Shown here: one piece after another, positions 32,150-36,540 of the stretch
How the letters are laid out: each line of letters starts with the position of its first letter
Position numbering within the stretch: the stretch's first letter is position 1
NCBI RefSeq assembly: GCF_009467825.1
Contig: NZ_WIOK01000004.1
Location: 124,001-188,000, forward strand
Length of the DNA: 64,000 bases
Direction of reading: 5' to 3'
Origin: Cyclobacterium xiamenense
GTDB lineage: Bacteria; Bacteroidota; Bacteroidia; Cytophagales; Cyclobacteriaceae
Translations under genes and position numbers: made by a program
Notes under the pieces: generated by a model
Seen by the model: the letters and a program-made list of their open reading frames with translations, nothing else
Databases searched by the model: none
What the model was told of the DNA's origin: nothing

Positions 32150-33532
32150 ATGAACAACGACCGACAGCAACTGAATGTCTTGTCAGAGCGAATTGCCGGC
32201 TTTCTGACATTTATCCGGGATAGATTTGATCTTCACGAAGGCAAAGAGGATGAATTAGAAACCATTGAATACATACGAAAGAATGTGGAATTCCGGGGTG
32301 CAAACCTATGGATTCTTATTTTTGCGATTTTGGTGGCTTCCGTCGGGCTGAATGTCAATTCAACCGCGGTAATCATTGGGGCCATGCTAATCTCGCCCTT
32401 GATGGGCCCGATTATGGGGATTGGCATGGCAGCTGGGGTCAACGATTTTGAATTGATAAAAAAGTCGATGAAAAATCTCGGGATCGCCGTACTGATCAGT
32501 ATCATGACCTCTACGCTGTATTTCTCATTTACCCCGCTGGCGGATGCGCAATCCGAATTGCTCGCCAGAACGGAACCCACCATTTGGGATGTATTGATTG
32601 CCCTCTTTGGGGGGCTGGCTGGCATCATTGCAGGATCCAGGAAAGAAAAAAGCAATGCCATCCCTGGAGTAGCCATTGCTACCGCCTTGATGCCGCCTCT
32701 CTGTACTGCCGGGTACGGGCTGGCTACCTGGAACCTGTATTATTTCATGGGGGCCTTTTACCTGTTTTTTATCAATTCGGTTTTTATCAGCCTCTCCACC
32801 TACCTGATTGTTCGGTTCATGGGATTCCCAAAAAAAGAATTCATTGACAGTCAGCGAGAAAGACGGGTTCGAAATTACATTTCCATTTTCATTGTCATCA
32901 CGATTGTACCCAGTATCTACCTGGCGTATAATATCGTTAAGCGGACCCTTTGGGAAAAATCAGCGAAGGAATTTGTGCAAATGGAATTTGATTTTCCCAG
33001 CACCCAAATAATTACGAGTAATTTCCACTATAACCCAGATAGCAGTACCATCGAAGTAGTGATGGTGGGACAGCGCATCAAAGAAGAGGAAATTGCCAGC
33101 ATGCAAAAGAAAACCGAGGCCTTTAAATTGAACCGGACCTTTCTACTGGTCAAGCAGAGTGGAGATACTGGAATGGATATGAATATGCTCCGTTCCGATG
33201 TATTGAAAGATCTGTACGAACGAAACGAAGCCATGGTACGCGACAAGGACCAGAAAATCGCCTTTTTGGAGCGCGAAGTGGCGCAATATGCAGCGTCGAC
33301 AGGGATGGTCGTAGACCTGGCGCAGGAAGCCCGGGTCAACCACAAAGATTTGATTGCTTTCTCGGTAAACCGAACCGTAGTGGCCAATTTGTTAGAAGAC
33401 CGGCAGGATACTGTTTTGGTAGCGGTTGCCACCTTTTCCAATACCCCTGGAAAACCGGAAACCGACCGACTTAAGTCCTGGTTGAAAGTTCGAACCAAGG
33501 CTGATTCCATCTCGCTGATCTTAGATCAATAA
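32150..33532 (+). CDS. DUF389 domain integral membrane protein
   Basis: This 460-residue protein has a cytoplasmic N-terminal ~50 residues and a membrane domain of about five to six helices. The conserved DUF389 block includes NSTAVIIGAMLISPLMGPIM and IPGVAIATALMPPLCTAGYG. The C-terminal third (after about residue 270) is soluble and partly helical (RNEAMVRDKDQKIAFLEREV). The function of the family is unknown; transport has been suggested. The start at MNNDRQQLNV was selected because it follows the intergenic terminator and the preceding in-frame residues look non-coding. Confidence 0.85.
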   Translation: MNNDRQQLNVLSERIAGFLTFIRDRFDLHEGKEDELETIEYIRKNVEFRGANLWILIFAILVASVGLNVNSTAVIIGAMLISPLMGPIMGIGMAAGVNDFELIKKSMKNLGIAVLISIMTSTLYFSFTPLADAQSELLARTEPTIWDVLIALFGGLAGIIAGSRKEKSNAIPGVAIATALMPPLCTAGYGLATWNLYYFMGAFYLFFINSVFISLSTYLIVRFMGFPKKEFIDSQRERRVRNYISIFIVITIVPSIYLAYNIVKRTLWEKSAKEFVQMEFDFPSTQIITSNFHYNPDSSTIEVVMVGQRIKEEEIASMQKKTEAFKLNRTFLLVKQSGDTGMDMNMLRSDVLKDLYERNEAMVRDKDQKIAFLEREVAQYAASTGMVVDLAQEARVNHKDLIAFSVNRTVVANLLEDRQDTVLVAVATFSNTPGKPETDRLKSWLKVRTKADSISLILDQ

Positions 33533-33694
33533 AAGGGAAGTAGCCGAGGTAATGGCATGAAAAGGCAGCTGGAAAACAGAGGCACTTTGGCAACCCTGTG
33601 CCGAGATACCCGTCTTTTTTCCCGCATCAACTGGGAGTAATACTCAGGGAAACCAATGGGCCAGTCCGGGGATGGTAAGGAGCCGCTATAAATC

Positions 33695-33727
33695 AAAAAA
33701 GCTATGAAACAATGTCTCATAGCTTTA
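33695..33727 (-). terminator. Terminator of the tRNA-like gene
   Basis: Read on the minus strand, AAAGCTATGA pairs with TCATAGCTTT (10 bp, 9-nt loop) and runs into six T residues. It lies about 31 nt beyond the 3' end of the tRNA-like sequence. The plus strand has only a poor T-tract, so the direction is minus. Confidence 0.7.
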
Positions 33728-33757
33728 GTCAATTAACAATAAACCCAAAATAACCTG

Positions 33758-33880
33758 CTGTAGGAGAAGGACTCGAACCTCCACGGGGCAGTTAGGCAAA
33801 ATACGAGCTCGCTACTTGCTTTGTCCTGTGACCCCACCCCCGAGACAGGAGGGCATGTCTGCCAATTTCATCATCCTACA
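33758..33880 (-). tRNA. Class II tRNA-like gene with GUC anticodon and giant variable arm
   Basis: A full cloverleaf can be drawn on the minus strand. The acceptor stem is TGTAGGA / TCCTACA, 7 perfect pairs. The D arm is ATG-AAATTGGCAGA-CAT, the leucine-tRNA type. The anticodon stem is CCCTC / GGGGG with one U-G pair, and the loop CTGTCTC gives anticodon GUC (an Asp anticodon) with an unusual U at position 37. The T arm is GGAGG-TTCGAGT-CCTTC with one G-U pair. Discriminator is G; CCA is not encoded. The variable region is about 54 nt and itself folds: GGGG/CCCC outer pairs, then GCAAG/TTTTGC around CGAGCTCG. Ordinary tRNA-Asp has no long arm, and ordinary tRNA-Leu has A73 and a Leu anticodon. 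It may be a specialised or non-translating RNA. Confidence 0.65.
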
Positions 33881-33914
33881 GTGTAAAAAGACCATTTGTC
33901 TTTATTTGATATTC

Positions 33915-33922
33915 CAAAGGTA
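33915..33922 (-). promoter_or_regulatory. Candidate -7 box of the tRNA-like gene
   Basis: On the minus strand this reads TACCTTTG, an exact match to the Bacteroidota TAnnTTTG -7 box, about 35 bp before the mature 5' end. The -33 position is only T-rich, so the match is partial. Confidence 0.4.
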
Positions 33923-34109
33923 GTATAACCGGTTAGAAATTAAAAATAATTGAATAAGTATTTCAAAAAAATATGATATTTTTAATTATTTACCCGTTTT
34001 TTATTTAACAATGTAATTTTTACAAAAGGAATGACCGATCGATTGACGAATTGTAAACGGGTCTTTTTCGGATTTTCCTTACCTTGGAAAAAAAAGTGTA
34101 AAAGGGTCC

Positions 34110-35006
34110 ATGGGAGAGCCGATAAAAATCTACGAAATGCCGACGAATACCAATCAGCGGGCGTTTCAACTGTATGAAGTTCAGGGGAAAACCATACAGA
34201 ACACCACCTATCCCCACGAAACGGATCGTCCCCACCGGCATACGTACTACGAAATTTGCGTGTTTATTACCGGGGCGGGGAAACACGAGATTGATTTTGA
34301 AGCACATCCCATTCATTCAAATAGCGTCCATTTTCTGTCTCCAGGCCAAATTCATTTAATAAGTCGCGAAAACGACTACCATGGCTACCTAATGGTTTTT
34401 TCCAGGGAATTTTACGGACTGGAGCAGGGCAATGAGGACGTCCTATTTCAATTACCCTTTTTTAACAACCCTACGCTTGTGCCGATTTTAAACCTGACCC
34501 AAGCGGATTTCAGCGAACTTCTTAATTTAATTTTATCGCTTCGTAAAGAATACATCCATTGGAATAACTTTTCCTCAGACATCCTTCGCCATTATTTGCA
34601 AATTTTCCTTTTAAAGTGTAAGCAATATTACCTGCGGTATTTTGCGGATACGAACAAGACCTTGGACCCCCATTTTTCGCTGGTACAGCAATTCAATGCG
34701 CTGGTTGAGCAGCGGTTTCGTCAGGTTCATCAGGTGCAGGAGTATGCTTCCCTTATGGCCATGACTCCCTCCCTGCTAAACAAGCATGTCAAAAACATTA
34801 CCGGGTTTACAGCTGGTGAGATTATTTTAGACCGATTGATGCTGCAGGCAAAGCGGTACCTGATTTATACAGACCTTTCCAACAAAGAAATTGCCTACCA
34901 GTTAAACTACCCGGATCCATCCTATTTCAGCAGAATTTTCAAACGGAAAACGGGAAAATCCCCGTCGGACTTTAGAAAGTCAGAAAACGAAAAGTACCAG
35001 CTTTAA
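34110..35006 (+). CDS. AraC family transcriptional regulator with cupin sensor
   Basis: This 298-residue regulator has an N-terminal cupin-like ligand domain (RPHRHTYYEICVFITGAGKHEID, LSPGQIHLI) and a C-terminal pair of helix-turn-helix motifs (about 200-298; KHVKNITGFTAGEIILDRLMLQ, then LSNKEIAYQLNYPDPSYFSR, FKRKTGKSPSDFRK). Small-molecule sensing of a sugar is typical for this architecture. It is 151 bp upstream of the GH88 operon on the same strand and is the best candidate for its activator. Confidence 0.92.
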   Translation: MGEPIKIYEMPTNTNQRAFQLYEVQGKTIQNTTYPHETDRPHRHTYYEICVFITGAGKHEIDFEAHPIHSNSVHFLSPGQIHLISRENDYHGYLMVFSREFYGLEQGNEDVLFQLPFFNNPTLVPILNLTQADFSELLNLILSLRKEYIHWNNFSSDILRHYLQIFLLKCKQYYLRYFADTNKTLDPHFSLVQQFNALVEQRFRQVHQVQEYASLMAMTPSLLNKHVKNITGFTAGEIILDRLMLQAKRYLIYTDLSNKEIAYQLNYPDPSYFSRIFKRKTGKSPSDFRKSENEKYQL

Positions 35007-35157
35007 TTTGAAAAACACCTTTGTAGGAGTGGTTTTTAAAGGTAACTTTATCCTTGGAAGTAAAATGTGCAAGATTTAACAAATTGGTTCCGATTTAAAT
35101 TTTGAATTTCGGGACATTTGTCGGATATCCGGAATAATTTTAAACCCATTTAAAAAT

Positions 35158-36540
35158 ATGATAGCAATAGATTTTGAAATTCAGCCCAAGGATTTGAAAA
35201 AAAGGCTGGAGCGTTTCTGGGATCTTTCTGCGGAGAAGATCCATTCAATTGAGCACGAGTATCCACAAAACCAAGGTTCACCGGTATTTACCAAGGATGG
35301 AAAATACACGACCCGGGGATGGACCGAATGGACTCAGGGCTTTCAGTTTGGTTCATCTATTTTGCAGTTCGACGCCACCGGCGAGTCACAGTTTCTGGAT
35401 AAGGGAAAGATGAAAACCTTGCAATTGATGGCGCCCCACATCAGCCATACGGGTGTACACGATCACGGTTTTAACAACGTCAGTACCTACGGAAATCTCC
35501 TTCGTCTCATGGTGGAGGAAAAAATACCCTACAACGAATGGGAAAAGAATTTCTACGAATTGGCCCTGAAAATTTCCGGTGCCGTACAGGCCAGCAGGTG
35601 GACCGGTCTACCCGACGGAGGATTCATCCACTCCTTTAACGGTCCCCATTCCCTATTTGTGGATACCATAAGAACCGTACGTATACTCATGCTGAGCTAC
35701 AGCCTGGGTCATGTGCTTCAGGAGGAAAACGACAAAAAGGTAAACTTGCTGGTCAGAGGCCTGCAACACGCCAAAGCCACGGCGGATTATTCCGTGTTTT
35801 ACGGGGAGGGTAGGGACCGGTACGATGTCTGGGGCAGGACGGCCCACGAGAGCGTTTTCAATACCCGGGATGGTAATTTCCGCTGTCCCAATTCCCAGCA
35901 GGGATATACGGGCTTCTCTACCTGGACCAGAGGCCTTGCCTGGGCCATGTGTGGCTTTGCTGAGGAATTGGAATACATCGACAACTTATCCGATGATTCC
36001 TTAAAAGCCTATGGCTCACCCGTAGAAATTGAGGCGTTTTTATTGAAAGCCGCAACGGCAAGTTGTGATTTTTACATCGATCACACTCCGGTAGACGGCG
36101 TCCCGTATTGGGATACTGGTGCGCCTAACCTGCATAAATTGGGGGATTACCTGGATAAGCCGGCCGATCCGTACAATGCCTACGAACCCGTAGATAGCTC
36201 TGCCGCTGCCATTGGCGCTCAGGGCTTGCTGCGTCTGGGGCACTACCTCCAACGCAAGGGGCAGACCGAAAAGGCAAAAAAGTACTGGCAGGCCGGACTG
36301 ACCGTACTGAAAACCCTGTTGGAAGAACCCTACCTGAGTACCGACAAAAACCACCAGGGTATCTTGCTGCATTCCATCTACCACCAACCAAATGGTTGGG
36401 ACAATGTGCCCAGGGGACAAAAAATTGCCTGCAATGAGTCCAGCATGTGGGGGGATTACCACGCCAGGGAACTAGCCCTTTACGTACAACGAATCGTAGA
36501 CAAGGATCCCTATTACACCTTCTTTAATTGTCTATCATGA
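35158..36540 (+). CDS. GH88 family unsaturated uronyl hydrolase
   Basis: This 460-residue (alpha/alpha)6-barrel enzyme would release the 4,5-unsaturated uronic acid left at the end of oligosaccharides cut by polysaccharide lyases. Family blocks are HDHGFNNVSTYGNLLRL with an Asp at the position of the first catalytic Asp, SLFVDTIRTVRIL with the second, GYTGFSTWTRGLAWAMCG, and ESSMWGDYHARELAL near the end. There is no signal peptide, so it acts in the cytoplasm on imported di- or oligosaccharides. The stop overlaps the next gene (ATGA). The exact sugar (pectin-derived or glycosaminoglycan-type) is not shown. Confidence 0.85.
   Translation: MIAIDFEIQPKDLKKRLERFWDLSAEKIHSIEHEYPQNQGSPVFTKDGKYTTRGWTEWTQGFQFGSSILQFDATGESQFLDKGKMKTLQLMAPHISHTGVHDHGFNNVSTYGNLLRLMVEEKIPYNEWEKNFYELALKISGAVQASRWTGLPDGGFIHSFNGPHSLFVDTIRTVRILMLSYSLGHVLQEENDKKVNLLVRGLQHAKATADYSVFYGEGRDRYDVWGRTAHESVFNTRDGNFRCPNSQQGYTGFSTWTRGLAWAMCGFAEELEYIDNLSDDSLKAYGSPVEIEAFLLKAATASCDFYIDHTPVDGVPYWDTGAPNLHKLGDYLDKPADPYNAYEPVDSSAAAIGAQGLLRLGHYLQRKGQTEKAKKYWQAGLTVLKTLLEEPYLSTDKNHQGILLHSIYHQPNGWDNVPRGQKIACNESSMWGDYHARELALYVQRIVDKDPYYTFFNCLS

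Follow-up and report, generated by a model that had tools for sequence, protein, structure and literature searches.

The window, that is, the whole 64,000-nucleotide stretch of the Cyclobacterium xiamenense genome analysed here, carries a 123-nt gene on its minus strand (33880 down to 33758, by sequence reading) in which a class II tRNA outline is combined with an aspartate anticodon and a leucine-like D arm. What is such an RNA for? The initial annotation left two answers, a recoding tRNA that inserts Ser or Leu at Asp codons or a tRNA-like RNA that takes no part in translation. Judged by sequence, structure and distribution, the gene and its relatives form a new family of tRNA-like RNAs that is under strong selection and does not decode. 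What the family does is addressed through its conserved positions and its co-occurrence with the amidotransferase GatCAB.

Organization of the tRNA-like gene

The gene sits between a DUF389 gene and a gene for an AraC-type regulator, and its parts are given here in order along the minus strand. The 5′ strand of the acceptor stem, TGTAGGA (33874..33880), supplies U1, G2 and U3 and was assigned from the sequence and 111 host copies. The D arm, ATG-AAATTGGCAGA-CAT with GG18-19 (33855..33871), is tRNA-Leu-like. The anticodon arm, CCCTC-CTGTCTC-GGGGG (33837..33853), was assigned from sequence and alignment and contains the anticodon GUC (33846-33844, from sequence), U37 and C38. The 54-nt variable arm (33783..33836) consists of a GGGG/CCCC stem, an internal loop GGACAAA / CTAAC and a hypervariable distal hairpin, and the self-complementary CGAGCTCG lies in its tip loop (33804..33811, from sequence); the tip of one copy in genome G058 is AGAGCTCT. 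The T arm, GGAGG-TTCGAGT-CCTTC with one G-U pair and a canonical loop (33766..33782, from sequence and alignment), leads into the acceptor 3′ strand TCCTACA, followed by G73 and C74 (33757..33765), two positions kept in 111/111 host copies. The minus-strand cloverleaf thus stands as first described, with all stems, GUC, U37, G73, a 54-nt variable region and a Leu-like D arm.

The promoter-like box and the hairpin/T-run terminator that had been noted at its flanks are also confirmed. The box TACCTTTG (33915..33922, from sequence) matches TAnnTTTG, which we take to be the Bacteroidota -7 promoter consensus, and the intrinsic terminator, a hairpin with a T run, occupies 33695..33727 (from sequence). 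The transcription unit also includes a 5′ leader hairpin, AAAGAC-AAATG-GTCTTT (33887..33903, from sequence), whose stem compensates in relatives (AAAGAC/GTCTTT, AGAGAC/GTCTCT), and a conserved 3′ tail, AGGTTATTTTGGGTTTATTGTTAATTG (33730..33756), which lies downstream of the last array copy in relatives. Of 179 host stretches taken downstream of the RNA, 22 contain the 25-mer core of this tail unchanged.

The same signals recur across the hosts. In the 110 nt ahead of the RNA, TAnnTTTG is found for 70.5% of 156 first-in-array host copies, compared with 8.7% in mononucleotide shuffles; of 151 host copies that end an array, 70% are followed within 110 nt by a hairpin of at least 6 pairs with T5, compared with 7.5% in shuffled sequence. 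On phage contigs, 13% of 76 copies have the box and 6% of 102 have the terminator.

ARAGORN called no tRNA in the window, the tRNA-like gene included. Rfam 15 searched over 32500-35500 returned six weak matches with E-values up to 5, all below gathering scores and none on the tRNA-like body; two of the six are miRNA models located on the terminator. The thermodynamic fold of the window RNA is not distinctive (z = -1.0), and the minimum-energy fold keeps the acceptor and T stems with the rest of the cloverleaf absent. Because the fold energy is unremarkable, the proof of the cloverleaf is comparative.

Covariation of the cloverleaf

In an alignment of 29 relatives built without reference to structure, 98.9% of cells are paired, and sliding the pairing partners lowers this value to 54-61%. 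Both sides have changed in 10 of 26 pairs (4.4 in shuffles). Counted by cells, 54 are changed on both sides compared with 10.9 in shuffles, and 0/500 shuffles reach 54. Each of the six helices contains at least one pair changed on both sides, so that all of them covary. Examples are the D stem, where ATG/CAT becomes TTG/CAA and others, and the first stem of the variable arm, which reads GGGG/CCCC, GGAG/CTCC, GAAG/CTTC, GAGG/CCTC or GGTG/CACC.

Distal to this stem comes the internal loop GGAnAAA / CTAAC, beyond which the arm closes in a hairpin of very unequal size, with three pairs around a GTAA loop at L056 and over 70 nt at the other extreme. Lengths run from 109 to 200 nt (median 149, n = 332) when RNAs shorter than 105 nt are set aside, and the parse that yielded the two broader phage sets described below succeeded for 263 of 287 sequences within the same limit. 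In one genome, G072, the variable arm is missing and the RNA measures 77 nt. The motif GACCAC is present in 15/58 and 49/98 host sequences and in 51/53 and 50/51 phage sequences, the first phage set having been found partly with a pattern that contains GACCAC. The sequence GCCTAAC resembles what we take to be an attC R'' core; an integron attC site was rejected on reading the sequence, in which GCCTAAC pairs with AAAGC and not with a GTTRRRY core.

Two loci carry inserts. At L043 (8390-8522 and 8570-8702), TCCCGATAGCTATCGGGA replaces part of the D and anticodon arm as a REP-like insert, and a similar REP-like palindrome lies within the variable arm at L068.

Copies in the genome and across Bacteroidota

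BLASTN against the window's own genome found, besides the window copy, two copies at 92%, one at 77% and a short partial match. Under the covariance model these four full copies have scores of 117-143 bits, and the best score after them is the 56 bits of a tRNA-Leu. With at least four full copies in the genome, the possibility that the gene is an isolated degraded copy falls away. Some match at E <= 1 was present in 91 of 99 genomes of relatives. The anticodon-arm 20-mer matched at least 118 stretches in named genomes, and all 80 of the matches listed, every one of which was carried into the further analysis, have Bacteroidota titles. Genera among these are Cyclobacterium, Algoriphagus, Belliella, Dyadobacter, Spirosoma, Runella, Emticicia, Marivirga and Flammeovirga, and the matches listed also include Saprospiraceae, Chitinophagales and two entries labelled Flavobacteriaceae (a Cellulophaga sp. 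and one metagenome bin). The tRNA-like RNA is a multicopy family of many environmental Bacteroidota and of phages.

Host copies stand in tandem at 29 of 151 host loci, separated by 27-108 nt; this count and the 122 phage-contig loci that carry family copies may include overlaps, as one place may carry two ids. The arrays seen have the leader hairpin ahead of the first copy and the conserved tail and terminator after the last. A mobile-element origin for the window copy was considered and rejected, with no match in annotated phage or plasmid collections. The copies in genome G002 lie near two identical ORFs that by eye resemble IS110-type transposases.

Partial and rearranged forms were also seen. 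Five host RNAs retain only the acceptor 3′ strand and the T arm and differ in their 5′ parts (L112:3379-3473, in contig C17 of the window's own genome; L136:304-415; L186:3149-3256; L165:5760-5817; L044:8876-8943), and the four whose downstream sequence was seen share the 3′ tail GGTTATTTTGGGTTTATTG. The RNA at L044 contains AAAGGAGGT, a possible anti-SD match. In the window's own genome, a 5′ fragment of another copy, joined to an unrelated hairpin, stands ahead of each of the two C42 copies (L038, upstream of 5410 and of 17871), and a degraded tRNA-Asp-like copy (L324:1590-1640) lies just upstream of the normal tRNA-Asp gene.

Copies on phage contigs

The anticodon-arm 20-mer matched 76 IMG/VR stretches, and looser patterns yield more. 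The phage sequence sets comprise 54 of the 76 20-mer loci and 78 further new loci among the looser-pattern matches listed. The phage copies examined are whole genes and not attachment fragments, except at contig ends (L297, L310). Their surroundings include terminase and portal genes within 6 kb of the RNA (L245), DNA polymerase and helicase genes nearby (L361) and a phage RNA ligase gene 1.1 kb away (L283). A tRNA scan that covered 52 of the 76 loci from the 20-mer search found clusters of up to 25 tRNA genes around the RNA, with tmRNA called at three loci (L243, L283, L305) and a normal tRNA-Asp(gtc) at 8 of the 52 (L252, L269, L272, L276, L283, L287, L305, L306).

An extra D-loop hairpin of changing sequence precedes GGCAGA or GGCATA at L239, L240, L242, L269, L271, L274, L277, L282, L301 and L306. 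Phage arm tips (e.g. at L283, L236 and L241) are often perfect palindromes such as GCCGGCCGGC, TTGTGCACAA, GCGCGC and GCTTGCAAGC, as if for kissing dimers. Palindromes of at least 8 nt were found in 66% of 111 phage arms compared with 28% of shuffled arms, and in host arms in 33% compared with 22% and 32% compared with 27%, a test that used mononucleotide shuffles and included near-duplicates. A palindromic dimerisation tip was therefore rejected as a general feature, being enriched in phage copies and little in hosts.

A second tRNA-like chassis was observed in phage tRNA clusters. It has the form AGTCAGG...CCTGACTAC with a Leu-like D arm and a T arm, its middle 50-90 nt differ from copy to copy, and there are several per contig. 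Examples lie at L247 (7682-7830, 6477-6616, 6142-6262, 5129-5276 and 8136-8251, minus strand) and L250 (10174-10281, 10395-10518, 10651-10809 and 1958-2061, plus strand), and further copies at L252, L299, L356, L389 and L411.

Conserved positions

Positions were counted in host copies drawn from 116 distinct sequences, of which 112 were parsed; removal of an ordinary tRNA-Leu (L114) left 111. The four unparsed sequences are the two L043 copies with the palindromic insert and the short RNAs at L112 and L044:8876-8943. All 111 came from whole-length BLAST or covariance searches, with no loop pattern and no end filter. U1:A72, G2:C71, U3:A70, U35, C36, C38, G73 and C74 are invariant in 111/111. 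G34 is kept in 106/111, being lost in G089, G480, G072, G052 and G413, and G10 is present in 10/111. Phage copies collected with a loop-free pattern (23 of 24 parsed) have U1:A72, G73, G34, U35, C36 and U37 in 23/23 each, C38 in 22/23, U33 in 15/23 and G10 in 16/23. U1:A72 is present in 53/59 and 51/54 sequences of two broader phage sets, which also contain other tRNA-like sequences.

The bacterial Asp identity set, as given in PMC9976931, comprises G73, G10, G34, U35, C36 and C38; the same source includes A73 in Leu identity. Among the host copies the AspRS elements G73, G34, U35, C36 and C38 are present and G10 is mostly missing. U1-A72 is the pair recognised by bacterial GatCAB in the account drawn from PMC4206432, and the 111 host and 23 phage copies all have it as the first pair. 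The loop of the genome's ordinary tRNA-Asp, CTGTCAC, is one base from the CTGTCTC of the tRNA-like RNA.

Decoding tRNAs need U33 and a purine at position 37. U33 is found in 90/111 host copies (G 9, A 7, C 5), position 32 also varies, and position 37 is U in 104, C in 6 and G in 1, making it a pyrimidine in 110/111. The tRNA-like RNA keeps the marks for Asp charging and the GatCAB pair and does not keep the marks for decoding. An ordinary tRNA-Asp(gtc), whose presence the initial annotation had proposed to check, was found in the window's genome; with normal tRNA-Asp in the host and at eight of the scanned phage loci, the tRNA-like RNA is not the Asp decoder.

The recoding answer finds no support in these counts. 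A73 occurs in 0/111 host copies, and the invariant U35, C36 and C38 fit Asp identity. Of the Ser-type features G73 is present, and the position of the variable arm looks Leu-like rather than Ser-like, a call that uses what we take to be the geometry of these tRNAs; the invariant U35, C36 and C38 would be pointless under SerRS charging, which leaves Ser recoding unsupported. A tRNA that decodes Asp codons as Ser, Leu or Asn is very improbable. A complete cloverleaf with T loop and GG18-19 is what such a tRNA would have, but U33 and purine 37 are not maintained, A73 is missing altogether and the host has its normal tRNA-Asp. The incomplete U33, the pyrimidine at 37, the normal tRNA-Asp and the hypervariable arm favour the non-translating tRNA-like RNA. 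The Leu-like D arm suggests descent from tRNA-Leu.

Co-occurrence with GatCAB

A sample of 395 Bacteroidota genomes was searched for both the RNA and gatB, by which GatCAB presence was scored. The RNA search scored the best 8 candidates per genome, and absences of the RNA are less certain for that reason. Carriers are 40 genomes with E < 1e-19 plus G072, which has the short form; RNA matches in non-carriers are 1.3e-14 or weaker, and those listed are tRNA-sized. gatB is present in every one of the 41. The class, 98 genomes with the window's kin included, divides into 38 with both, 0 with the RNA only, 3 with gatB only and 57 with neither (Fisher p = 5e-24, uncorrected for kinship). Co-occurrence was tested against kinship within the two mixed families, f23 (7 both, 3 neither; p = 0.008) and f24 (11 both, 2 neither; p = 0.013), whose five negatives represent four genera. 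Outside the class, gatB has a match in 291 of 297 genomes and the RNA is found in three, all of family f67. The RNA tracks GatCAB within the class.

GlnRS was searched for in 60 genomes, namely the 41 carriers, the 3 gatB-only genomes and 16 of the 57 double negatives. Of the 41 carriers, 33 have it over the cut-off, so that no glutamine role for GatCAB is obvious in those genomes. The carriers without it are G000, G366, G072, G089, G480 and the three f67 genomes. Among the three gatB-only genomes, G139 is without GlnRS and the gatB of two is divergent (E about 1e-105).

AsnA is present in 5 of 41 carriers, four of them without GlnRS (p = 0.003), and in 8 of the 57 class genomes that have neither gatB nor the RNA. 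An AsnB-family protein is over the cut-off in 36/41 carriers, as inferred per genome from E-values, and many may be paralogues. Five carriers (G413, G246, G362, G088, G070) have neither AsnA nor AsnB over the cut-off, compared with 2 of 57 double negatives, a difference that is not significant (p = 0.13). This distribution of AsnA and AsnB does not fit a simple rule that RNA carriers are without asparagine synthetase. The window's genome has asnA and AsnRS and no GlnRS over the cut-off, so GatCAB is presumably needed there for Gln-tRNA. Its ordinary tRNA-Asn has U1:A72. Its AspRS is of the bacterial type, with 6wom as the nearest solved enzyme; in place of the RRDLG of the E. coli and Thermus enzymes and the RDKG of 6wom it has RNKGG.

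Discussion

We tentatively propose, with confidence a little short of even, that the RNA is a non-decoding carrier on which asparagine is made away from the ribosome, aspartylation by AspRS being followed by amidation by GatCAB. RNase P and the CCA enzyme would mature the RNA. AspRS would then charge it with aspartate, because the Asp identity set GUC, C38 and G73 is present, and GatCAB, reading U1:A72, would turn the bound Asp into Asn. Three features, namely the length of the variable arm, the pyrimidine at 37 and the lack of constraint on position 33, would bar the charged RNA from the ribosome, where it would otherwise place Asn at Asp codons. The Asn may then be released, by a candidate deacylase or spontaneously, or used elsewhere, and release on this scheme would require a fast deacylase. 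The wider claim, an RNA-borne asparagine synthase in many Bacteroidota and their phages with AspRS and GatCAB identity in one molecule whose arm and loop would bar it from decoding, is more doubtful and is raised as a possibility.

Several results weaken the carrier proposal. The window's own genome has AsnA and is without GlnRS, so that another route to Asn is available to it, and most carriers (36/41) have AsnB-family proteins. G10 is mostly missing, and one of the five genomes that lose G34, G413, has neither AsnA nor AsnB over the cut-off. Outside the class, gatB is matched nearly everywhere and the RNA almost nowhere (three of 297 genomes). Class II synthetases approach tRNA from the variable-arm side, so the long arm might hinder AspRS. 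For bacteria with AsnRS, GlnRS and GatCAB, PMC4206432, whose survey includes Bacteroidetes, proposes that Asn is made on ordinary tRNA-Asn by a relaxed AspRS.

The same conservation and gatB co-occurrence would also fit an RNA that regulates or scaffolds AspRS and GatCAB, acting as a decoy for the transamidosome or in its assembly rather than being turned over as a substrate, with the hypervariable arm and palindromic tip serving for binding or dimerisation. Self-complementary tips are enriched in phage copies, and multicopy units with their own promoters would suit a titrating RNA; in hosts, however, the enrichment of palindromes is slight and there are arms that close with a mere three-pair GTAA hairpin (L056), and we regard such a role as unlikely. 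Somewhat less probable still is a dedicated Asp donor for a tRNA-dependent transferase acting in lipid, peptide or protein aspartylation, with GatCAB linked by ancestry only. Aminoacyl-tRNA has known non-protein uses and the Asp identity set is conserved, but a donor of this kind would leave unexplained both the invariant U1:A72 and the gatB link inside the mixed families, and the neighbours of the few copies examined included no conspicuous partner gene.

The phage contexts would also fit a further role, as an anti-nuclease decoy or infection sensor in which a tRNA mimic soaks up, or is cut by, defence anticodon nucleases. The RNA occurs in tRNA-rich phage contigs, one with the RNA ligase gene at L283, and its arm and D-loop hairpins change fast. 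A decoy might be expected to diversify its anticodon core, which is instead conserved, and would not predict the gatB link; this explanation is accordingly quite improbable, if less so than the decoding tRNA considered above.

Whatever its function, the locus exposes a transcribed multicopy RNA family that spans several Bacteroidota families and phage contigs and that ARAGORN and Rfam missed in the window. If the AspRS-GatCAB proposal is true, GatCAB gains a role in bacteria that have both AsnRS and GlnRS, and why such bacteria keep it is a question raised in PMC4206432. Amino-acid synthesis on RNA would be separated from decoding, the family would make it straightforward to test how such an RNA, once charged, stays off the ribosome, and the phage copies would be an auxiliary metabolic gene that is RNA and not protein.

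Comparison with known systems

In the open-licence full-text papers searched, no description of the family was found. It resembles bacterial tRNA-Leu in its D arm, GAAATTGGCAGA, in U at base 44 and in a 4-bp variable stem with GU between it and the T stem; this likeness derives partly from what we take to be general tRNA-Leu features, with one tRNA-Leu of the window's own genome (L114) compared. It differs in having G73 and not A73, a GUC loop and a variable arm of at least 54 nt. As with tmRNA, both hosts and phages have this tRNA-like RNA, and the two kinds can share a phage cluster (L243, L283, L305). Unlike tmRNA, whose tRNA-like domain lacks an anticodon arm and is joined to a tag reading frame, it has a covarying anticodon arm and receives no tmRNA call from ARAGORN or Rfam, and the window's genome has a separate tmRNA.

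The allo-tRNAs and the selC-like tRNAs of Mukai et al. 2017, reviewed in PMC7609411, have a long variable arm and odd or diverse anticodons, and some are polycistrons that were not charged in vitro by E. coli synthetases. According to the same review, allo-tRNAs have an 8/4 or 9/3 acceptor domain, are mostly of SerRS identity and are reported from Clostridia, Proteobacteria and Acidobacteria. The present family shares with them a non-canonical gene and a long variable arm. It differs from this description in its occurrence in Bacteroidota and phages, its Asp identity marks, its constant anticodon core and its 7/5 acceptor domain, the aligned copies having an acceptor stem of 7 bp and a T stem of 5 bp in place of 8/4 or 9/3. 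In Deinococcus, Thermus and Bdellovibrio, a non-discriminating AspRS (ND-AspRS) and GatCAB make Asn on tRNA-Asn, as set out in PMC4206432. The likeness to that pathway lies in the proposed chemistry, in which Asp on a U1-A72 RNA would be amidated by GatCAB. There the carrier is a decoding tRNA-Asn served by a relaxed AspRS, whereas here a separate non-decoding RNA with an Asp anticodon would carry the amino acid. The allo-tRNAs are thus nearest in look and tRNA-Asn-based Asn synthesis is nearest in proposed function, and the family is filed under neither.
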